A stretch of 64,000 bases of DNA from Sulfuriferula sp. AH1 (GTDB lineage Bacteria; Pseudomonadota; Gammaproteobacteria; Burkholderiales; Sulfuriferulaceae): the NCBI RefSeq assembly GCF_002162035.1, contig NZ_CP021138.1:1240001-1304000 (forward strand), written 5' to 3'. Below the pieces are notes generated by a model, which did not search any database, was not told the DNA's origin, and saw only the letters and a program-made list of their open reading frames with translations. Positions 51,371-62,725 of this stretch are shown one piece after another (position 1 is the stretch's first letter; each line of letters opens with the position of its first letter). A program made the translations under genes and the position numbers.

Positions 51371-52131
51371 ACATCACCATACTCGGATGCAGCGGAGGCA
51401 TAGGCGGCGGCCGACATACCACTTCATTGCTGGTCGATGACGACATTCTGATTGACGCTGGCAGCGGGGTGACCCGATTGTCACTGGCTCAGCTTGCCGC
51501 CATCGATCACGTGTTCATTACGCACAGTCATCTTGACCATATCCTGTCATTGCCGCTATTGCTGGATTCGGTTGGGGCCATGCGAAATCGCCCGGTAACG
51601 GTGTATGCGATCGACGGTGTGCTGGAAATCTTGCGGCAGCATATCTTTAACTGGCGTGTATGGCCGGATTTTAGCGAGATTCCGCCTGAGCGGCCTTACT
51701 TGCGTTATATCGCGATCGATGTGTATCAGGCGGTACAATTGGATGGCCGTGCCATTACTGCCTTACCCGCCAGTCATACCGTGCCTGCGGTCGGCTATCA
51801 GCTGGACAGCGGCAGCGGCAGCATCGTTTTTTCCGGAGATACCGGACCTGATCCGGCACTATGGGATTGGGTCAATCATATCGGAAATCTCAAGGCACTC
51901 ATTATCGAGACCGCTTTTCCACAGGAGGAGCACGGCATTGCCGAGCTATCCAAACACCTCTCTCCCCAAAGTCTGATCGATGAATTAAAGCAGTTCAAAC
52001 TCGATGCGCCTGTCTATATCACCCATCTCAAGCCGGGGCGCGAGGATGCCATCATGAGTGAAATCGCCGCACTGCACCCGGCTGTCAATATGCCGCAACA
52101 GCTGGTGCCCGGACAAATCTTCAGCATTTGA
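51367..52131 (+). CDS. Metallo-beta-lactamase-fold protein, cAMP phosphodiesterase class II-like
   Basis: A 254-residue MBL-fold hydrolase. The metal motif THSHLDHILSLPLL (H-x-H-x-D-H) is at about 60-73, with further ligands in ALPASHT, SGDTGPD and YITHLKPG. The N-terminal NITILGCSGGIGGGRHTTSL and overall layout resemble the class II cyclic-nucleotide phosphodiesterases. Its ATG overlaps the stop of the cyclase gene (ATGA), so a cAMP- or cGMP-degrading role is likely. The frame extends upstream into the cyclase, but that is an artefact. Confidence 0.82.
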   Translation: MNITILGCSGGIGGGRHTTSLLVDDDILIDAGSGVTRLSLAQLAAIDHVFITHSHLDHILSLPLLLDSVGAMRNRPVTVYAIDGVLEILRQHIFNWRVWPDFSEIPPERPYLRYIAIDVYQAVQLDGRAITALPASHTVPAVGYQLDSGSGSIVFSGDTGPDPALWDWVNHIGNLKALIIETAFPQEEHGIAELSKHLSPQSLIDELKQFKLDAPVYITHLKPGREDAIMSEIAALHPAVNMPQQLVPGQIFSI

Positions 52132-52150
52132 ACATAACGGCTGTTCAGCA

Positions 52151-52196
52151 TGTGCCATACCGGTGCATTTCCATTTCTGCGCACTATCCCGATGCA
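52151..52196 (+). promoter_or_regulatory. Two putative NtrC-binding sites (enhancer) of the guanidine operon
   Basis: Site A TGTGCCATACCGGTGCA (52151-52167) and site B CGCACTATCCCGATGCA (52180-52196) resemble the NtrC consensus TGCACTATTTTGGTGCA: A keeps the right half, B both halves with one mismatch in each. Their centres are 29 bp apart (about three helical turns) and lie near -137 and -108 relative to the predicted sigma-54 start, close to the spacing of NtrC sites at E. coli glnA. Not tested. Confidence 0.55.
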
Positions 52197-52269
52197 TGAT
52201 TGAATCGATTGGTTTGCAGGTATCCGTTGAATAGTGCGACAACTATTTGAAATAAAATAGCTAAATATT

Positions 52270-52285
52270 TGGCACGCATGTTGCT
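52270..52285 (+). promoter_or_regulatory. Sigma-54 promoter of the guanidine operon
   Basis: TGGCACGCATGTTGCT matches the -24/-12 consensus (TGGCACGNNNNTTGCW) at every conserved base, with correct GG-to-GC spacing. Transcription should start near 52296, just ahead of the riboswitch leader. It requires RpoN plus an enhancer-binding protein. Confidence 0.85.
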
Positions 52286-52329
52286 AAGTAATCTGCAAGA
52301 GAGGTGCAGTCGTCACTGCAGCCTTTGTC

Positions 52330-52435
52330 ATCAGGGCATCTAGGGTTCCGGTCCCATATTGGGATGTCTGGTCCGAGAGTTGCCCGGTCTCGGTTGGCCG
52401 GGACTCCACGGAGGGATAAAAGCCCGGGAGGTTGC
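52330..52435 (+). ncRNA. Guanidine-I (ykkC) riboswitch
   Basis: The leader contains the conserved core of the ykkC guanidine-I aptamer: CTAGGGTTCCG (52340-52350), CTGGTCCGAGAG (52368-52379) and ACGGAGGGATAAAAGCCCGG (from 52408, then GAG). A GC-rich paired insert separates the latter two. It senses free guanidinium and switches on downstream genes. After the aptamer I see no T-tract terminator. The stem-forming GCGATCGGTTGTCGC and CATCCTCTCGC segments before the AAGGAG (52473-52478) suggest control at translation or by Rho. Boundaries are approximate. Confidence 0.93.
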
Positions 52436-52486
52436 GATCGGTTGTCGCTTCATCCTCTCGCTTTTAACTTTCAAGGAGTCGCGGTT

Positions 52487-52552
52487 ATGTTATTCCAATA
52501 TCGGTTCGGCCACATGTTGCGCGTATTCCCTCTCCCGTTGACCGGAAAATAG
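52487..52552 (+). CDS. 21-codon leader ORF between riboswitch and permease
   Basis: MLFQYRFGHMLRVFPLPLTG then K and TAG; an AAGGAG Shine-Dalgarno sits 8 bases upstream of the ATG. It ends 8 nt before the permease start. It is too short for a domain. It may couple translation of the permease to the riboswitch, or be a relic of a deleted gene (a substrate-binding protein is usually first in such transporter operons). Coding status is uncertain. Confidence 0.5.
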   Translation: MLFQYRFGHMLRVFPLPLTGK

Positions 52553-52560
52553 AGGCGAAT

Positions 52561-53406
52561 ATGTCATTGCCTGCACAAAATCCCGTTATCCAACCGCATG
52601 CATTCTTGCGCCGGCTCTGGCGCAGATTCTGGACGATCCGCGGCCATCTGAGCCGCAAGGAATTCCTGCTCTTTGCTGTACTGGGTATGCTGGTTCCTTT
52701 TGCCGGCTGGTGGTTGCTGGCCAACAGCGGCATCATGGACAAAGTGTTCCTGCCCAGCCCAATGGACGTGGTGGCGCGGGTTTATCACTGGTTCGAAGAC
52801 GACGATCTGGTCGGCGATGCGTGGATCAGTATCTACCGTGTCACGGTAGGCTTCCTGCTCTCGGCAGTGATTGCAGTGCCGCTGGGGATAATGATAGGCA
52901 CTTACCGCCCGATACAAGCCATATTCGAACCGCTGACCGACTTCATCCGCTATATGCCCGCCGTGGCTTTTATCCCCTTGGTCATGCTCTGGGTGGGTAT
53001 CGACGAGGGTTCGAAGATAGCCATTATCTGGATCGGTACTTTTTTCCAGATGGTGCTGATGGTGGCTGAGGACATACGCCGCGTGCCGATGGCGCAGATC
53101 GAAGCGGCGCAGACCATGGGAGCCGGGGACGAAGAGATCGTATCGCTGGTGATCTTCCAGTCGGCCAAGCCCGCATTGCTCGATACCCTGCGCATCACCA
53201 TGGGATGGGCCTGGACTTATCTGGTGGTGGCCGAGATGGTGGCGGCCAACTCGGGACTGGGTTACGCGATCCTCAAGGCGCAACGTTTTCTGCAGACCGA
53301 CAAGATATTTGCCGGCATTATCCTCATCGGCCTGATCGGCCTGATCATGGATCAATTGTTCCGCCTTGCGCACCGCAAGAGCTTTCCCTGGTTATATAAA
53401 AAATAG
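52561..53406 (+). CDS. ABC transporter permease of the guanidine operon (SsuC/TauC type)
   Basis: A 281-residue inner-membrane permease with about six TM helices and the EAA loop EAAQTMGAGDEEIVSLVIFQ (about residues 178-197) that contacts the ATPase. It belongs to the nitrate/sulfonate/taurine-like permease subgroup. Its location behind the riboswitch and beside carboxyguanidine genes points to guanidine or a related nitrogen compound as substrate. It follows the 21-codon ORF by 8 nt and precedes the ATPase by 9 nt. No substrate-binding protein is in the operon, so the transporter needs one encoded elsewhere. Confidence 0.9.
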   Translation: MSLPAQNPVIQPHAFLRRLWRRFWTIRGHLSRKEFLLFAVLGMLVPFAGWWLLANSGIMDKVFLPSPMDVVARVYHWFEDDDLVGDAWISIYRVTVGFLLSAVIAVPLGIMIGTYRPIQAIFEPLTDFIRYMPAVAFIPLVMLWVGIDEGSKIAIIWIGTFFQMVLMVAEDIRRVPMAQIEAAQTMGAGDEEIVSLVIFQSAKPALLDTLRITMGWAWTYLVVAEMVAANSGLGYAILKAQRFLQTDKIFAGIILIGLIGLIMDQLFRLAHRKSFPWLYKK

Positions 53407-53415
53407 GCGAACTCC

Positions 53416-54264
53416 ATGGATACCAAGATCCAAATCAATGCTGCCGGCAAGATATTCAGCACCGGCAAACAGGAAGTCGTGGCCTTGCAGGATATCAATC
53501 TGTCTATCGGCACCAACGAATTCATCACTTTTGTCGGAGCGTCCGGCTGTGGCAAGTCCACCTTGCTGCGCTGTATCGGCGGCCTGGAAACACTCAGCTC
53601 CGGCGAGATACGGGTGAACGATAAAGCAGTGCAAGGCCCCGGTATGGACAGGGCGATGGTATTCCAGAATTACAGCCTGTATCCATGGCTGTCAGTGGTC
53701 GACAACATCAAATTCAGCCGGCGGCTGAAGGTGAATCGGGAAGGTGCCACTTCTTCGGAAGTCGAAGTGGCATCGGGGCGCGCCGATGCATTACTGTCGC
53801 TGATGGGACTGGCGCATGCCGCCAAAGCTTACCCTAATCAGCTTTCCGGCGGCATGCAGCAGCGTGTGGCGATAGCGCGCGCCTTGTTGCCCAAGCCGGA
53901 AATCCTGCTGATGGATGAGCCGTTCGGCGCACTGGACGCGCAGACGCGAGAGGTAATGCACGACCTGATCCTGCATCTGTTCAATCTGGAAAAGACTACC
54001 ATCGTGTTCGTGACCCACGATGTGGAAGAGGCCATTTATCTTGGCCAGCGTATTGTGCTGATGGCGCCGCGCCCAGGGCGTATCGATACCATCTACGAGG
54101 TGCCGCTGCCGGACAAGCGCGATCAGGAGATGAAGCTGTCGCCTGAATTCATTGCGTTGAAGAAGGAAATCCTGACCCGCATCCGGGAAACATCCGGCAT
54201 GCATACCGACCAGGATTTGCTGGAACGCATGACCCGGCAGATAGAAGGCAGCGAAATAGTTTAA
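53416..54264 (+). CDS. ABC transporter ATP-binding protein of the guanidine operon
   Basis: A 282-residue ATPase with Walker A GASGCGKST (about residues 42-50), signature LSGGMQQRVAIARAL (~143-157), Walker B ILLMDEPFGALD and H-loop VTHDVEEA. It belongs to the SsuB/TauB subgroup and should energise the permease encoded 9 nt upstream. An insertion between Walker A and the signature (NREGATSSEVEVASGRADAL) is a little longer than usual. The next genes encode the deiminase subunits. Confidence 0.92.
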   Translation: MDTKIQINAAGKIFSTGKQEVVALQDINLSIGTNEFITFVGASGCGKSTLLRCIGGLETLSSGEIRVNDKAVQGPGMDRAMVFQNYSLYPWLSVVDNIKFSRRLKVNREGATSSEVEVASGRADALLSLMGLAHAAKAYPNQLSGGMQQRVAIARALLPKPEILLMDEPFGALDAQTREVMHDLILHLFNLEKTTIVFVTHDVEEAIYLGQRIVLMAPRPGRIDTIYEVPLPDKRDQEMKLSPEFIALKKEILTRIRETSGMHTDQDLLERMTRQIEGSEIV

Positions 54265-54308: not shown

Positions 54309-55046
54309 ATGAAAACATCAACAACAGCATTCAGTCCGGATCGGGTGTTGTGGGAAGAAGAGATTCCCGGCGGCGCGCACTGGTCGTTCAACATGAAGCG
54401 CGGTACTACCTTGCGCGTGACCGACGTCGAAGGCAGCGCCAACCTCTCTGTGCTGTTTTATAACCGGGATGAGAAACTGGAGCGCTATAACATGGCGGAC
54501 ACGCTCAAGGCCCAGCATACCGCGCACTTGACCAAAGGCTTCGTGTGTTATTCGGACATGGGCCGCGTGCTGTGTTCGATTACCGAGGATAGCTGCGGCT
54601 GGCATGACACGGTATGCGGCATGACGGATGCTGCCCAGGTGCTGGCCAAATACGGCGAAGCGCGTTACCAGACCCATCTCAATGCGATGCACCGCAATGG
54701 CCGCGACAGCTTTTTGATTGAACTCGGCAAGTGGGGCTTGGGCAAGCGCGACATTGTCGCCAACGTCAATTTGTTCAGTAAAGTCAGTGCCGATGCAGAG
54801 GGTAACCTGGTTTTTCATACAGCTAATTCGGTAGCCGGTGATTTCGTCGATCTGCGTTTTGAAATGGATACGCTGGTGGTGCTTGCAGCGACCCAGCACC
54901 CGCTGGATCCGAATCCGCAATACCAGCCCAAGCCGGTGAAGTTTACCGCATGGCGTTCCGAATTGCCGGATGAATACGACTACTGCCGCAATTTCCGTCC
55001 GGAAAACCAGCGCGGCTTCCATAACACCGAATTGTTATACCGTTGA
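54309..55046 (+). CDS. cgdA: Carboxyguanidine deiminase subunit (urea carboxylase-associated protein, DUF1989)
   Basis: A 245-residue DUF1989 protein. The cluster [19 protein letters not shown] (Cys and His around residues 80-98) is a likely zinc site. Long annotated as urea carboxylase-associated protein 1, this pair is now known as CgdAB, which deiminates carboxyguanidine to allophanate. It has an AGAGGA site 8 nt before the ATG. It is the first of two paralogues; the second starts 11 nt after its stop. The A/B labels follow gene order. Confidence 0.85.
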
Positions 55047-55056
55047 GGGGAAGAAC

Positions 55057-55695
55057 ATGGCTATCGTAGAAAGTAAACTCGACCCCAAAGACGCCGTGCA
55101 CGATGAAATCGTGCCCGCAGGCGAGCCCTGGCTGCATGAAATCAAACACGGGCAAACATTCCGCATCCTCGATCTGGAAGGCAATCAGGCTGTCGATACC
55201 CTGTTTTATAACGCGCAGGAGCCTGCGGAAAGATACAGCGCGGTGGATACCATTCGCGCGCAGGGCAATCTGTATCTGACCGCCGGTTCGAGACTGTTGT
55301 CCAGCGAAGGCAATGTACTGGTGACCATTACTGCCGATACCTGCGGGCGTCACGATACGCTGGGCGGCGCCTGCGCCGCGGAGAGCAACAGCGTGCGTTA
55401 TGAAACCGGCAAGAAGTTCATGCACAGCTGCCGTGACAGCTTTCTACACGCGCTGGGCCATTGCGATTGCCATATGGACAAGCGCGACCTCACCAGCAAC
55501 GTCAATTTCTTCATGAACGTGCCGGTGACCCCGGAAGGCAAGCTGACTTTTGAGGATGGCATTTCCGCTCCCGGAAAATACGTGGAAATGCGTGCCGAGA
55601 TGGACGTGATGGTGCTGATTTCCAACTGTCCACAGTTGAATAACCCGTGTAATGCTTACAATCCGACGCCGGTAAGATTGCTGATCTGGAATTGA
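55057..55695 (+). CDS. cgdB: Carboxyguanidine deiminase subunit (urea carboxylase-associated protein, DUF1989)
   Basis: A 212-residue paralogue of the preceding protein, with the metal-site region [20 protein letters not shown]. The start at [20 protein letters not shown] follows GAGGGGAAG at proper spacing; the frame runs 29 codons further up, overlapping cgdA, but without support. Together the two subunits should release ammonia from carboxyguanidine, giving allophanate for AtzF. The 75-nt gap to the carboxylase gene has no hairpin of note. Confidence 0.85.
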
Positions 55696-55770
55696 TCACT
55701 CCGGTTGCAGGACGACCTGCAATAACAAGAATAATGATGGGACGACCCGTTATGAAATGGGAACAAGATC

Positions 55771-58700
55771 ATGTTTGATAAAGTGTTGATAGCCAACCGC
55801 GGCGCCATTGCCTGCCGTATTATCCGGACACTGAAACAGCTGGGTATCCGTTCGGTCGCTGTGTATTCCGAGGCCGATGCCTATTCGCTGCATGTGGCGC
55901 AGGCTGACGAAGCCGTGTGCATAGGGCCGGCGCCCGCCGCAGAAAGCTATCTGCGCGCTGAAAGGATACTGGAAGTCGCCCAACAGACCGGCGCCCAGGC
56001 CATCCATCCCGGTTACGGCTTCCTTTCCGAAAATGCCGCATTCGCCGAATCCTGTGTTGCTTCCGGCATCGTGTTCATCGGCCCGACGCCGGATCAGATG
56101 CGGCGCTTCGGTCTCAAGCATACGGCACGCGAAATCGCCGAGCAGAATCAGGTGCCATTATTGCCCGGTAGCGGGCTGCTGGCCGACGCCGGTCATGCCC
56201 AGGCCGAAGCCGCACGCATCGGCTATCCGGTCATGCTCAAAAGCACCGCAGGCGGCGGCGGTATCGGCATGCGCCTGATCTGGAGCGCTGACGAGCTGCT
56301 GGAAGCATTCCAGTCGGTCGCACGGCTGGCCAGCGCCAACTTCAAGGACGCCGGTATCTATCTGGAAAAATACGTCGAGCAGGCGCGCCATATCGAAGTG
56401 CAGATCTTCGGCGACGGCAAGGGCAATGTGGTCGCTCTGGGCGAACGCGATTGCTCGGTGCAGCGCCGTAACCAGAAGGTGATAGAAGAAACCCCGGCAC
56501 CGGGGCTGACTGATGCGCAACGTGCGCGTTTGCTGGCAACCGCAGTACAACTCGGCAAGGCGGTGAACTACCAGTCTGCCGGTACGGTGGAATTCGTCTA
56601 TGACGCGCAGAACGGCGAGTTTTACTTCCTCGAAATCAATACCCGGCTGCAGGTGGAGCATGGCGTCACCGAACAGGTGACCGGCATCGATCTGGTTGAG
56701 TGGATGGTGCGTCAGGCCGCAAATGACTTGCCTGCGCTCGACAGCATGACCATCAATCCATGCGGAGCCTCGATACAGGTGCGCCTGTACGCCGAAGATC
56801 CCGGCAAGAATTTCCAGCCGTCCAGCGGCGTGCTCACCGAAGTCGTGTTCCCGGAGAGCGCCCGCGTCGATACCTGGGTCGAACGCGGCAGCAATATCCC
56901 TCCATTCTACGATCCGATGGTAGCGAAAATCATCGTTACCGCCGCCGACCGCGAACAGGCCATTGCCGGCATGCAAAGCGCGCTGGATGCGACCCGTATT
57001 GCCGGTATCGAGTGCAATCTGGATTATCTGCGCCAGATTATCCGCGACCACGTGTTTGTCGCGGGCAGGCAGACTACGCGCTATCTGAATGCGCTGCATT
57101 ATCAGGCAGCGACTATCGACGTGTTGGAGCCCGGCGTGCAGAGCAGCATTCAGGATTACCCCGGACGGCAGGGCTATTGGGACGTCGGCGTGCCGCCTTC
57201 CGGCCCCATGGACGCACTGGCATTCCGTCTGGGTAACCGCTTGCTGGGCAACGCCGATAATGCCGCCGGACTGGAATTGACCGTGGCCGGGCCGACCCTG
57301 CGCTTCAACCGTGACAGTGTGATCGCGCTAACCGGGGCGGGCATGACGGCCGAACTGGATGGTGAAGCGTTTGATTTCTGGCGTGCGCAACCGGTCAAGG
57401 CTGGCAGCGTATTGCGTCTGGGCAACATACAGGGCGACGGCTGCCGCAGCTATCTGGCGGTAGCGGGCGGTTTTGACGTACCGGACTATCTGGGCAGCAA
57501 ATCAACCTTTACGCTGGGTCAATTCGGCGGTCATGCAGGACGCACGTTGCGGGTGGGTGATGTGCTGCATCTGGGGGCAACGCCTGCTGCTGTGCAAGCC
57601 GATGTGGCGCTGGATGCGGCTTTGATACCCGAATACCACAGCCATTGGGACATCGGCGTGCTGTACGGCCCGCATGGCGCCCCGGATTTCTTTACCGATG
57701 CCGATATCGACATGTTCTTTGCCACCGACTGGGAAGTGCATTACAACTCCAGCCGCACCGGGGTACGCCTGATCGGCCCCAAGCCGCAATGGGCGCGGAC
57801 TGATGGCGGCGAGGCAGGCTTGCATCCGTCCAATATTCACGACAATGCCTATGCCATCGGCGCAGTGGATTTTACCGGCGACATGCCGGTGATCCTGGGC
57901 CCGGATGGTCCCAGTCTGGGTGGTTTCGTGTGCCCTGCGACCATCGTCCAGGCCGAATTATGGAAGATGGGGCAGCTGCGTCCCGGCAACACGGTGCGCT
58001 TCAGGCGTATCGGGCTGGATGAGGCGATGCAGCGCGAACAGGCTCAGGATAGCGCCATCGCTACTCTGACACCGGCAGCAGACATGAATATTTTCACCAT
58101 GACAACGTCTACCCCGGTGTTGCATCGGCTCGAAATCCAGGACGGGCAGGTCGCGGTGACTTACCGGCCAGCCGGCGACAAGTATCTGCTGGTGGAGTAC
58201 GGTCCGCTGGTGCTGGACATCAATCTACGCTTTCGTGTGCATGCGTTGATGACCTGTCTGCAGCAGAAGAATATCCCCGGCATCATCGACCTGACTCCCG
58301 GCATCCGTTCGCTGCAGGTGCATTACAACAATCAGCGGCTGCCGCTGCCGCAATTGATGGATGCGCTGGCCATGGCGGAATCTGCCCTCGCCAATATTGA
58401 GGATCTGGTTGTGCCTGCCCGTATCGTACATCTGCCATTGTCGTGGGATGATCCGTCCACTCGTCTGGCGATAGAAAAATACATGCAGTCGGTACGCAAG
58501 GATGCGCCCTGGTGCCCAAGCAATATCGAGTTCATCCGCCGCATGAACGGGCTGGACAGTATCGAGCAGGTGAAAGAAATCGTGTTCAACGCCAGCTATC
58601 TGGTGATGGGTCTGGGTGACGTCTATCTGGGCGCACCAGTCGCCACACCGCTGGATCCACGGCATAGACTGGTGACCACCAAATATAATCCGGCGCGCAC

Positions 58701-59373
58701 CTGGACGCCGGAAAACGCCGTCGGTATCGGCGGTGCCTACATGTGCGTGTACGGCATGGAAGGCCCCGGTGGTTACCAGTTTGTCGGCCGCACCATACAG
58801 ATGTGGAACCGCTACAAGCAGACTGCCGATTTCATCGACGGTAAGCCATGGTTGTTGCGCTTCTTCGACCAGATCCGCTTTTATCCAGTGTCGGAAGACG
58901 AATTGCTGCAACTGCGCGAAGATTTTATTGCGGGTACGTTCAAGCTCAAAGTGGAAGAAACCACATTCAGCCTGCGCGAATACAACCAGTTCCTGCAGGA
59001 CAACAATGCCGACATTGCCGCATTCAGGGACAAGCAGCATGTTGCTTTCAATGCCGAGCGCGAGCGCTGGCAGGCAAACGGCCAGGCTGATTATGCATCG
59101 GATGTTACCGTTGCCGAAGCGGCAACCGATAGCGAGCTGGATTTGCCGCCTAACAGTCGTGCTGTTGCGGGGCATGTGGCGGGAAATATCTGGAAGATAG
59201 AAGTGGCGGAAGGCGATACGGTGCAGGCGGGAGATACCCTGCTGATCATCGAATCCATGAAGATGGAAATCAACGTGGTAGCGCCGGTTGCCGGAAAAAT
59301 AATACGTATGTTCTGTCGCGAGGGCAGCCAGATTGCTGCCGGACAGGACTTGCTGGTAATACAAGGGGAATGA
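55771..59373 (+). CDS. Guanidine (urea) carboxylase, biotin-dependent
   Basis: A 1200-residue biotin-dependent carboxylase. The biotin carboxylase domain (about 1-450) has [16 protein letters not shown] and [17 protein letters not shown]. The KipA/KipI-type carboxyltransferase domains (~455-1000) follow, and the biotin carrier motif ESMKMEI (biotinyl Lys about K1164) is at the end. Usually annotated as urea carboxylase, its linkage to cgdAB and a guanidine riboswitch indicates guanidine as the real substrate, giving carboxyguanidine. Length is full. It overlaps atzF minimally: 1-nt spacing to the GTG. Confidence 0.92.
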
Positions 59374-59374
59374 T

Positions 59375-61189
59375 GTGGAAAACTTGAGTCTGGATATCGC
59401 CAATTTGCAGGCGTTGTATCGTGCGGGTGCGCTGACGCCACGTGCGCTGGTGGATGTGGTGCTGGCACGTACTGCCGGGAATAATACTGATAATGCCTGG
59501 ATTTATCAGCTGCCTGCAGAGCAGCTGTATGCCTACGCAGATGCACTGGCGGACAAGGATCCGGCGCAGCTGCCGCTGTATGGGATACCGTTTGCCATCA
59601 AGGATAATATCGATCTGGCTAATGTACCGACCACTGCCGCGTGCCCGGAATTTGCGTATGTGCCGGAGCAAAGTGCTACGGTAGTGCAGCGGCTGATCGA
59701 TGCCGGTGCCATTCCGGTTGGCAAGACCAATCTGGATCAGTTTGCAACCGGCCTCAATGGCACGCGCTCGCCTTACGGCGCCTGTCGCAATGCCTTTGAT
59801 CCCGAGTATATCTCCGGCGGCTCCAGTGCCGGATCGGCAGTTGCCGTCGCCAAAGGCTGGGTCAGTTTCAGTCTGGGTACCGATACCGCCGGCTCCGGTC
59901 GCGTGCCCGCGGCATTCAATAATCTGGTCGGACACAAGCCGACTTGCGGCTGGCTATCGACTACCGGAGTAGTGCCGGCTTGCCGTTCGCTGGATACGGT
60001 GTCGGTATTCACCCTGACCGCGCAGGATGCGGAGCAGGTCGTCGCCGCTGCGGCCGGTATCGACGAAGCGGATATTTACTCGCGTAAAGTGGAAGGGCAC
60101 GGTTTCGATTTCGGCCGCGCCGCAACGTTTATCTTCGGCGTACCGCGTACCGAGCAATTGCAGTTTTTCGGCAACGCTGAAGCGGAACGCCTGTTCCGCG
60201 ATGCGGTAGCCCGGCTGCATGAGCTCGGCGGAGTGGCGATAGAGATAGACCTGGCACCGTTCCTGGAAGCCGCGCGGTTGCTGTATGACGGCCCATGGGT
60301 GGCGGAGCGTTATGTGGCGATCAAGGGTTTTTTTGACGCACATGCCGACAGGATATTTGCGCCGGTGCGGGAAATCATCGGAGGTGCAGCGCGCTATTCC
60401 GCAGCAGATGCCTTTGCCGGACAATACCGCTTGCGTGAACTGAAGCGCCAGGCTGATAAGGTATGGGCAGCGGTGGACTGCCTGGTGACGCCGACTGCCG
60501 GGACGATTTACACGATAGCCGAGATGCAGGCCGATCCGATCAGGCTGAACTCGAATCTGGGTTATTACACCAACTTCATGAATCTGCTCGATTATGCGGC
60601 GGTGTCGGTACCTGCCGGATTCCAGCGGGACGGATTGCCGTTCGGCATCACATTGGTAGCGCCTGCACATCAGGATGTGCCGCTGCTGCATCTTGCAGCG
60701 CGCTGTCAGCAGGCTGTGGCGACTCCGCTGGGGGCGACCGCTATCGCGCAGCCAGCCTTGTCAGTCGAATTGACTGCGGTGCTGCCGTCTGGCCAGGTAC
60801 GGGTAGCGGTGTGCGGTGCGCATTTATCCGGCCTGCCGCTGAACTGGCAGCTCATCCAGCGCGGCGCGCGGCTGGTGCAGGTTACGACCAGTTCGCCGGA
60901 TTACAGGTTTTATGCGTTAGCCGGTGGCCCGCCATATCGTCCGGGCATGGTGCGCGTACAGCCTGGCGAACAGGGCGGTGCGATTGCGGTGGAAGTATGG
61001 GAAATGCCGGCGCGCGAATTCGGCTCGTTCGCGGCCGGGATACCTGCACCGCTGGGCATAGGCACGATTACGCTGGCAGACGGTACTCGGGTTGCCGGTT
61101 TTGTATGCGAAAGCTATGCAATTGCTGATGCTATTGATATTACGCATCTGAACAGCTGGCGCATCTATTTGAAAAGCAAATGTAAATAA
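59375..61189 (+). CDS. atzF: Allophanate hydrolase
   Basis: A 604-residue amidase-signature enzyme, close to the 605 residues of AtzF. The Lys-Ser-cisSer triad appears as FAIKDNIDL and GGSSAGSAVAVA, with TDTAGSGRVPAAFNNLVGHK around the second Ser. The C-terminal ~140 residues form the separate AtzF C-terminal domain (VAGFVCESYAIADAIDIT). It splits allophanate into 2 NH3 and 2 CO2, finishing guanidine use. It starts with GTG one base after the carboxylase stop; an ATG frame at 59373 is not open for long. Confidence 0.94.
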   Translation: MENLSLDIANLQALYRAGALTPRALVDVVLARTAGNNTDNAWIYQLPAEQLYAYADALADKDPAQLPLYGIPFAIKDNIDLANVPTTAACPEFAYVPEQSATVVQRLIDAGAIPVGKTNLDQFATGLNGTRSPYGACRNAFDPEYISGGSSAGSAVAVAKGWVSFSLGTDTAGSGRVPAAFNNLVGHKPTCGWLSTTGVVPACRSLDTVSVFTLTAQDAEQVVAAAAGIDEADIYSRKVEGHGFDFGRAATFIFGVPRTEQLQFFGNAEAERLFRDAVARLHELGGVAIEIDLAPFLEAARLLYDGPWVAERYVAIKGFFDAHADRIFAPVREIIGGAARYSAADAFAGQYRLRELKRQADKVWAAVDCLVTPTAGTIYTIAEMQADPIRLNSNLGYYTNFMNLLDYAAVSVPAGFQRDGLPFGITLVAPAHQDVPLLHLAARCQQAVATPLGATAIAQPALSVELTAVLPSGQVRVAVCGAHLSGLPLNWQLIQRGARLVQVTTSSPDYRFYALAGGPPYRPGMVRVQPGEQGGAIAVEVWEMPAREFGSFAAGIPAPLGIGTITLADGTRVAGFVCESYAIADAIDITHLNSWRIYLKSKCK

Positions 61190-61303: not shown

Positions 61304-61319
61304 TGGCATGCTTGTTGCT
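61304..61319 (+). promoter_or_regulatory. Second sigma-54 promoter, upstream of the amidase gene
   Basis: TGGCATGCTTGTTGCT matches the -24/-12 consensus (one mismatch, C to T, in TGGCAC; GG-GC spacing exact). The start would be near 61330, about 79 nt before the amidase ATG. No clear NtrC pair was found in the 115 bp between atzF and this site, so the enhancer may be upstream or shared. Confidence 0.75.
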
Positions 61320-61408: not shown

Positions 61409-62725
61409 ATGAAATCAATGAGTAAATGGAAGTTATCTGTGGGCTTGGCGCTGGCTGGTGCTACATTCGGTGTAGGTGCGTATACTTATGAGCAACTGTC
61501 AATGGAAGAAAAGCTTCGTATTGTTCCGGCAGCCCATGTTTCAGGTAAGCTGCATTTGCTTCCTGCAACTATGGAAACCACACAATGGGGATGGTTTGAC
61601 AATGCACAAACCCCGGTCATGACTATTATGCCTGGCGATACCGTTGCACTGGAAACCATGATGCATTCCCATAATCAGATTGTGCCTGGCACGACACTGG
61701 AAACCATTAAAAAACTGCGGATTGACAATCCGGGACGTGGGCCGCATACCCTCACAGGGCCGATTTTTGTGGAAGGTGCTGAGCCGGGCGATGTATTGAA
61801 GATACATATCAACAAGATTATGCCACGTTCTTACGCAACAAATTTCAATATTCCCGGCATGTTCGGTGAATTTCCCAAGGAATTCCAGGATGGTCAGGTT
61901 AAATATTTTTATCTGGATATGGATAAAAAAGTGACTGAATTTGCACCGGGAATTGAAATCCCATTGCACCCTTTTCCTGGAACGATAGGCGTTGCGCGAG
62001 CAGAACCCGGTAAATATAGCTCGGTTCCACCGGGACCATTCGGCGGAAATATGGATATTCGCGAGTTGACTGAAGGCACTACGTTGTACTTGCCTGTGTT
62101 TGTGAAAGGCGCACTATTATGGAGCGGCGACTCGCATGCGGCACAAGGCAACGGCGAAATTAACCTTACTGCACTGGAAACCGCCTTCAAGGAAATGAAT
62201 ATCACCGTTGATGTCATCAAGGGCACCAAACTTGATTGGCCTCGGATTGAAACATCCAGGAACTGGATCACAATGGGATATGACAATGATCTTAACAAGG
62301 CCTGGGACATAGCGAAAGCTGAAACGGGCAAATATCTTGGCCAGCAACGTGGCATCTCCCCGGAAAAAGCTGTCGGCCTGATGCAGAAAGTATCGGACTG
62401 TCGTATTTCGGAAGTGGTTAATATCAAAAAAGGTGTGTATTGCATGAATCCGAAGGATGCCAAATCCACAATCACAGTGGATCATCCTGTTGCTGAAACC
62501 AACCGCTATTGGGTTACTACTGCAACTGATGCTGATCTGAATAAAGCCATGGATCAAGCGTCAATGGCAATGATTGGTCTGTTGCAGGAGAAGAAAGGCT
62601 TGTCACGTCTGGATTCTTACGGGCTTGCGAGCATGTCCATGGATTGCCGTTTAGGCGATTTGTCCGATGATTCCAAAAGCGTACATTGCCTGATGCCGAA
62701 AAGCCTCTGGGTAGCCAAAAAATAA
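61409..62725 (+). CDS. Exported acetamidase/formamidase family enzyme
   Basis: A 438-residue FmdA/AmdA-type amidohydrolase. A hydrophobic N-terminal segment (about residues 9-26) looks like a signal peptide or anchor, so it is likely periplasmic. Family motifs include GPIFVEGAEPGDVLKIHI, PGPFGGNMDIRE and GDSHAAQGNGEINLTALE (metal-site His). It hydrolyses formamide or short amides to ammonia. Four Cys near residues 331-431 could form disulfides. The sigma-54 promoter upstream and the guanidine operon beside it suggest nitrogen scavenging. The start follows AAAGGAAAG. Exact substrate unknown. Confidence 0.83.
   Translation: MKSMSKWKLSVGLALAGATFGVGAYTYEQLSMEEKLRIVPAAHVSGKLHLLPATMETTQWGWFDNAQTPVMTIMPGDTVALETMMHSHNQIVPGTTLETIKKLRIDNPGRGPHTLTGPIFVEGAEPGDVLKIHINKIMPRSYATNFNIPGMFGEFPKEFQDGQVKYFYLDMDKKVTEFAPGIEIPLHPFPGTIGVARAEPGKYSSVPPGPFGGNMDIRELTEGTTLYLPVFVKGALLWSGDSHAAQGNGEINLTALETAFKEMNITVDVIKGTKLDWPRIETSRNWITMGYDNDLNKAWDIAKAETGKYLGQQRGISPEKAVGLMQKVSDCRISEVVNIKKGVYCMNPKDAKSTITVDHPVAETNRYWVTTATDADLNKAMDQASMAMIGLLQEKKGLSRLDSYGLASMSMDCRLGDLSDDSKSVHCLMPKSLWVAKK

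Follow-up and report, generated by a model that had tools for sequence, protein, structure and literature searches.

A Guanidine-I riboswitch behind a probable NtrC/sigma-54 promoter in Sulfuriferula sp. AH1 and other Pseudomonadota: candidate two-input control of guanidine use

Promoters of the glnA type combine a -24/-12 element with a pair of NtrC dyads located 100-140 bp upstream and separated by about three helical turns. A similar arrangement is present in Sulfuriferula sp. AH1, in a 64 kb stretch of its genome (contig NZ_CP021138.1, positions 1240001-1304000; hereafter the window, numbered from its first base), where it precedes a Guanidine-I riboswitch and an operon for guanidine transport and degradation; here, the RNA would next have to pass a guanidine-dependent terminator. 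The role of guanidine, a nitrogen-rich compound, for bacteria has been termed elusive, according to the available part of one paper (PMC12186494). The operon of Vreelandella boliviensis, as presented in the accessible sections of its description (PMC12508155), likewise begins with a Guanidine-I riboswitch, has a Guanidine-II riboswitch before the carboxylase gene, and encodes the same enzyme set; it differs in that riboswitch control only is described, and neither NtrC nor RpoN was found in the main text. In the NtrC regulon of Burkholderia cenocepacia H111, as far as the available part of that study goes (PMC5491218), genes for a carboxylase, a substrate-binding protein, and a urea-carboxylase-related protein are ntrC-dependent, as is proposed here. 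Each part of the system is already known, and so are the pairing of Guanidine-I with Guanidine-II in Vreelandella (PMC12508155) and the NtrC control of seemingly corresponding genes in one species. No work joining NtrC or sigma-54 to guanidine riboswitches was found among the titles and abstracts listed, a set lying mostly outside the subscription literature.

The elements of this locus and their conservation in relatives suggest that an NtrC/sigma-54 start is combined with guanidine-dependent read-through, and this combination quite probably works as an AND gate with two inputs that governs the use of guanidine as a nitrogen source. In nitrogen-limited cells, phosphorylated NtrC on the two dyads would drive sigma-54 RNA polymerase to start at about position 52295. 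When guanidine is missing, the 3' tail of the aptamer (GGGAGG) would pair with CCUCUC and transcription would terminate. When guanidine is present, the tail would be held within the aptamer, so that CCUCUC could instead pair with GAGAGG from the beginning of the transcript in a helix enclosing the aptamer. The polymerase could then read into the transporter and degradation genes, and an internal Guanidine-II riboswitch may add a translational check on the carboxylase.

The leader lies between a metallo-hydrolase gene, which ends at 52131, and the guanidine operon, and all features of the locus given below are on the plus strand. The sigma-54 element TGGCACGCATGTTGCT occupies 52270-52285 and agrees with the consensus at 11 of 11 scored positions (TGGCAC-N5-TTGCT), the GG and GC of its -24 and -12 parts being ten bases apart within TGGCAC and TTGCW. 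It is the sole exact match to TGGCACNNNNNTTGCW in the window. The transcription start is placed at about 52295, some 11 nt past the GC of the -12 part, and the conserved leader arm begins nearby. A sequence-only reading of this DNA had predicted the promoter, put its start just before the aptamer, and suggested the AND gate; the -24/-12 element is present and kept in the five same-genus leaders discussed below, which supports that reading, and the distance is corrected to about 34 nt. Taken alone, the motif says little because matches with one mismatch are no rarer than expected (four in the window against 3.55 in shuffles), and the case for a promoter draws its force from relatives. The absence of any sigma-70-like site in 52100-52600 also says little, as only 0.6 would be expected by chance. 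These two figures are what favors a reading in which the -24/-12 and NtrC matches are accidental and an unseen sigma-70 promoter serves the operon. Such a coincidence is extremely improbable, given that the element is similarly placed in 180 of 206 leaders, all five same-genus guanidine transport leaders included.

A Guanidine-I match occurs in 5 of 18 same-genus genomes, Sulfuriferula sp. AH1 among them. In the same-genus leaders with a guanidine transport operon downstream (the window, G014, G013, G012, and G001), the -24/-12 element scores 11, 11, 11, 11, and 9 of 11, and the two best NtrC-like dyads score 12.6/11.3, 12.8/11.4, 13.5/7.5, 17.9/9.6, and 8.7/8.4, respectively. Loss of the element or of the NtrC sites in close relatives had been named beforehand as the refuting observation; all five leaders keep both. 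When these five leaders are aligned with one from another genus, columns without variation are concentrated in the -24 part (TGGCA), the -12 part (TGCT), and the start of the transcript (AGAGAGG). Apart from these leaders, G013 and G012 each contain a third copy of Guanidine-I (L018 and L019), which has a sigma-54 element and precedes a 280-residue protein without a match to any pathway reference protein.

The wider survey drew on relatives (a match in 11 of 61 genomes), on the order (48 of 399 genomes) and the phylum (57 of 397), and was extended by 80 named loci identified by their permease. The 210 distinct leaders recovered by regular expression were reduced to 206, four having less than 200 nt upstream; L115, L154, L155, and L156, which score below the family cut-off and escaped the regular expression, are omitted, as are G131:C60 and G496:C1:836539, likewise below the cut-off. 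An element scoring at least 9 of 11 lies upstream of 180 of the 206 leaders, compared with 3 of 206 when the reverse strand is scanned and 184 of 4120 in dinucleotide shuffles. The leaders from the family search alone, all from Pseudomonadota, have it in 107 of 133 cases; the remaining 73, known only through the permease search and biased toward this operon, have it in every case. Its position is also constrained, as 166 of 181 elements scoring at least 8 begin 51-110 nt 5' of the CTAGGG of the aptamer. As a control, thiamine pyrophosphate riboswitches of related genomes, their aptamer start placed by the nearest CTGAGA, are preceded by an element at 2 of 30 loci among the matches listed. The first recognized gene downstream is a substrate-binding protein, permease, CgdA, or CgdB gene in 175 of the 180 leaders with an element, and the other five match no reference protein. 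An NtrC/sigma-54 layer conserved before the riboswitch would mean that the switch serves nitrogen assimilation in these lineages.

Two NtrC-like dyads lie upstream of the element, TGTGCCATACCGGTGCA at 52151-52167 (profile score 11.3) and CGCACTATCCCGATGCA at 52180-52196 (12.6), 29 bp apart. Their centers, about -136 and -107, fall next to the -137 and -108 of the sequence-only reading. The dyad profile was trained on 118 sites of the same survey with Sulfuriferula excluded, which makes counts based on it partly circular for the relatives, a problem that the k-mer and spacing tests do not share. Both dyads are the two best profile sites in 52100-52269, and in shuffles of the region the top dyad has P=0.0065 and the score of the second was reached in 0 of 2000. 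An assumption-free 6-mer search of 167 non-redundant regions upstream of the element returned GCACCA/TGGTGC in 108 regions (24.9 expected) and GGTGCA/TGCACC in 78 (22.4 expected). GCACCA and GGTGCA are NtrC half-sites. Taken as a pair in inverted orientation, with at most two mismatches, they occur at spacing 5 in 127 of the 167 regions against 27.3 expected, while the runner-up, spacing 7, occurs in 61 against 28.0. With the profile, 151 of 176 leaders have at least one dyad scoring 8 and 70 have two or more, whereas shuffles give 22 and 1, respectively; in 37 of these 70, the two top dyads stand 30-32 bp from each other, a spacing that the window pair nearly matches. Dyad centers in the relatives peak at -130 to -111 and at -100 to -81.

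The genome encodes RpoN (478 bits) and a single NtrC that exceeds the curated cut-off (703.8 against 558.6 bits). Eight further proteins match the NtrC model strongly (about 290-413 bits) and remain below this cut-off, and the sigma-54 promoter could be activated by one such enhancer-binding protein, e.g., one sensing the substrate and not nitrogen. This is very unlikely, since the motif that emerged from the assumption-free search is the NtrC half-site at spacing 5. It is also opposed by the published ntrC mutant of B. cenocepacia, which loses expression of the seemingly corresponding genes (PMC5491218, in its available part), and by two families of leaders in which the element is absent and no NtrC exceeds the cut-off, though other NtrC-like proteins are still encoded in their genomes.

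These two families account for most of the 26 leaders without an element, 13 belonging to family f16, 6 to family f102, and 7 to neither. In f16, none of the 13 leaders (12 genomes) has the element, and 12 of them precede an APC-type permease. Because amoA is found in 8 of the 12 genomes, we read this family as presumptive ammonia oxidizers; the four genomes without amoA may reflect assembly gaps. NtrC above the cut-off occurs in none of the 12 genomes, and a dyad scoring at least 11 in none of the 13 leaders; one leader (L037) contains a dyad scoring 9.6, above its own shuffles. In f102, the element is absent from all six leaders (six genomes; 6 of 8 matches, L155 and L156 not being recovered), and NtrC exceeds the cut-off in 0 of 6 genomes. 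In five of these six, the match to the NtrC model is split into two parts within one frame, with positions about 195-226 left unmatched; this is reminiscent of the NtrC of Rhodobacter, which works with sigma-70. In contrast, an NtrC above the cut-off is present in each of six genomes with the element that were tested for it. The count was made without a tree and does not distinguish loss of the element from never having had it. The presumed ammonia oxidizers, for which the released ammonia is an energy source, can be regarded as a natural control.

The published B. cenocepacia data support the NtrC dependence of what seems to be the same operon in another species. In another strain of this species (L275, 5133-5821), two Guanidine-I leaders (76.7 and 76.6 bits) point away from each other, toward a substrate-binding protein gene on one side and CgdA-, CgdB-, and carboxylase-like genes on the other; each has a sigma-54 element scoring 10 of 11, and both are arranged around one central NtrC dyad scoring 15.6. 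In the ntrC mutant of strain H111, according to the part of the study available (PMC5491218), the carboxylase gene I35_7286 is down by a log2 value of 6.0, and the authors interpreted I35_7283-7286 as serving urea use. Judging from gene names and order, we infer that these genes correspond to the guanidine genes of the strain inspected here.

The Guanidine-I aptamer was located at 52329-52432 (RF00442, 89 bits against a gathering cut-off of 63), in agreement with the ykkC core noticed earlier. Its 3' tail overlaps a predicted terminator hairpin at 52426-52466, in which GGGAGG (52426-52431) pairs with CCUCUC (52454-52459), followed by GCUUUUA. Between the start of the RNA and the aptamer are the leader arm GAGAGG (52299-52304), a candidate antiterminator strand that the sequence-only reading had not noticed, and a small predicted hairpin, UGCAGU-CGUC-ACUGCA (52305-52320), similar in related leaders. 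The unblocked leader of the window folds into the terminator; when the aptamer tail is blocked, as a stand-in for the ligand-bound state, 52299-52304 pairs with 52454-52459 instead.

The case for the leader arm is drawn from homologues, because the helix of the window, taken singly, does not rise above chance (score 16, shuffles averaging 16.3). Among 114 non-redundant leaders, the best uninterrupted helix between the leader and its own 3' region has a mean score of 22.1 against 17.6 for swapped partners, a value reached in 0 of 10000 permutations, and it starts within 15 nt of the predicted transcription start in 97. As the swapped null could be confounded by G+C content, further controls were added, which gave 17.5 for shuffles of the own region, 17.1 for sequence further downstream, and 17.9 for G+C-matched partners. 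The pairing is kept while the sequence varies across lineages, with GAGAGG:CCTCTC, GAGGGTG:CACCCTC, ACGGGA:TCCCGT, and GAGGAATCAAATGGC:GCCATTTGATTCCTC as examples. To our knowledge, a similar enclosing helix has been recognized only for the related phosphoribosyl pyrophosphate (PRPP) aptamer. In that riboswitch (ykkC subtype 2), a helix of the RNA ends forms around the ykkC aptamer as part of the expression platform, and the guanidine aptamer is given as having none, in the available part of the report (PMC6031431); in the present case, the 3' partner would be the distal terminator arm and the 5' partner the very start of the transcript.

The leader arm is rather likely to act as an antiterminator upstream of the aptamer, and the 5' end of the transcript becomes a candidate second element in termination control by this riboswitch class. 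The arm could instead be a processing or protein-binding site, or part of a helix of the terminated state, a possibility of appreciable though lesser weight which is compatible with the AND gate. In its favor, the evidence for antitermination comes from sequence and folding, and the helix is individually significant against own shuffles in 43 of 114 leaders, that of the window not being one of them. A group of nine alphaproteobacteria-like leaders (L062, L075, L127, L129, L137, L143, L144, L148, and L151) has the sigma-54 element at -36 to -38. The start predicted for them thus coincides with the aptamer, so that a leader arm would not fit, which also favors another function, and the switch would have to work differently there. 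What speaks for the antiterminator is that complementarity has been preserved while the sequence itself changed between lineages.

Several observations weigh against two-input control as proposed here. In the window as a whole, three sites reach the score of the better dyad (12.6) and six that of the other (11.3), both dyads included, so that what is unusual is their pairing and place and not their single scores. Both dyads deviate from the consensus, and they sit a few bases upstream of the two position peaks of the relatives. The leaders behind the count of 180 in 206 are related by ancestry, with two or three coming from some genomes, and the counts are therefore not independent. The seven leaders outside f16 and f102 also lack the element, one of them (L130) in spite of a good dyad. 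In the fold with the tail blocked, the full Rfam aptamer is not reproduced, and a consensus terminator scan missed the terminator of the window, whose U-rich stretch is short. The H111 mutant does not test guanidine, the strain inspected here differs from H111, and I35_7283 (substrate-binding protein) and I35_7285 (urea-carboxylase-related) stand in the same ntrC-dependent list with no fold value in the available part of the paper (PMC5491218).

The main alternative to the AND gate is that NtrC and sigma-54 alone set expression and the Guanidine-I riboswitch is leaky, which would amount to hierarchical control with no true gate. The short U-rich stretch is compatible with it, and guanidine is unmentioned in the available part of the B. 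cenocepacia NtrC study (PMC5491218); NtrC dependence without mention of guanidine means that expression may be substantial when none is added. This alternative is unlikely, as the aptamer, the overlapping terminator hairpin, and the matching leader arm have been kept across wide evolutionary distances. Also, the Vreelandella operon was strongly up on guanidine versus ammonium, in the accessible sections of that paper (PMC12508155), a comparison that alters both signals together.

A more general proposal can be made, tentatively and with less confidence than in the AND gate itself. In beta- and gammaproteobacteria, the Guanidine-I switch might have evolved as a unit with the NtrC/sigma-54 promoter, which would fix the 5' end of the RNA so that its first 10-15 bases serve as the antiterminator enclosing the aptamer. 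This unit would come apart when a lineage abandons NtrC, as in the presumed ammonia oxidizers. Were this true, the riboswitch would read properly only those RNAs begun at the nitrogen-controlled start.

The operon downstream encodes an ABC transporter permease (52561-53406, PF00528), 92% identical to that of a Sulfuriferula metagenome-assembled genome, and an ABC transporter ATPase (53416-54264, PF00005). These are followed by a guanidine carboxylase (55771-59373, TIGR02712), for which the family model is named urea carboxylase, and an allophanate hydrolase (AtzF, 59375-61189, TIGR02713 above cut-off). In an alignment to the Kluyveromyces lactis protein, the carboxylase has Asp at positions corresponding to both 1330 and 1584, the first of which is Asn in K. 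lactis (numbering derived from alignment offsets); Asp at both positions is the criterion for guanidine carboxylase in the available part of a paper on comammox bacteria (PMC11410670). Between the ATPase and the carboxylase lie a CgdA-like protein (UAAP1, 54309-55046, TIGR03425 above cut-off) and a CgdB-like protein (UAAP2, 55057-55695), the start of the latter being read from the sequence and TIGR03424 being above cut-off for the open reading frame (ORF) 54970-55695. With the Asp pair and the CgdA/B-type and AtzF models, the operon has the marks of the guanidine carboxylase pathway. Both Cgd-like proteins belong to the DUF1989 family, which we take to be COG3665. A study of the sigma-54 regulon counted 102 sigma-54-regulated COG3665 genes, 59% of which were named urea carboxylase (PMC12316311, available part). 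A guanidine riboswitch is not mentioned in the accessible parts of that study or of the H111 study (PMC5491218). The conserved NtrC/sigma-54 layer suggests a guanidine function for some of the NtrC-dependent genes now annotated as urea carboxylase.

The operon contains two classes of guanidine riboswitches, Guanidine-I at its head and Guanidine-II at 55704-55750, just 5' of the carboxylase gene (RF01068, 38.2 bits against a cut-off of 32). In five related operons scanned for Guanidine-II, it is above the cut-off in two (L159 and L163) and discernible by eye only in three.

Between the terminator and the permease lies a micro-ORF of 21 codons (52487-52552), whose stop is 8 nt before the permease start. 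The short ORF with AAGGAG of the sequence-only reading is thereby confirmed, AAGGAG being at 52473-52478. In four Sulfuriferula leaders, an ORF stands at the same place with 21, 21, 21, and 23 codons. The ORF comes after the terminator (52426-52466) and cannot attenuate it, which excludes a role as a leader-peptide attenuator. Translational coupling to the permease is possible, and so is an origin as the remnant of a lost substrate-binding protein gene; in eight comparisons with signal peptides of substrate-binding proteins, the shuffle fractions spread from 0.0025 to 0.975.

Other loci show further features related to this system. In L157 (G000:C1:1302001-1316500), a second leader of the Guanidine-I type, which has a sigma-54 element of its own, lies in front of a substrate-binding protein gene on the minus strand (12350 to about 6900). 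Next on the same strand are genes for a fatty-acid-desaturase-family protein, two short-chain dehydrogenases, and a creatininase-family protein, and this cluster could perhaps provide a route from substituted guanidines to guanidine. Within the window, a sigma-54-like element, TGGCATGCTTGTTGCT, is found at 61304-61319 before an acetamidase/formamidase-family gene (61409-62725); it was left out of the guanidine system, as the best dyad upstream of it scores only 5.0. On plasmid pRK1-2 of Cupriavidus basilensis (L276, 13671-14001), a HEARO RNA and an iscB gene are located a few kilobases from a plasmid-borne guanidine operon.
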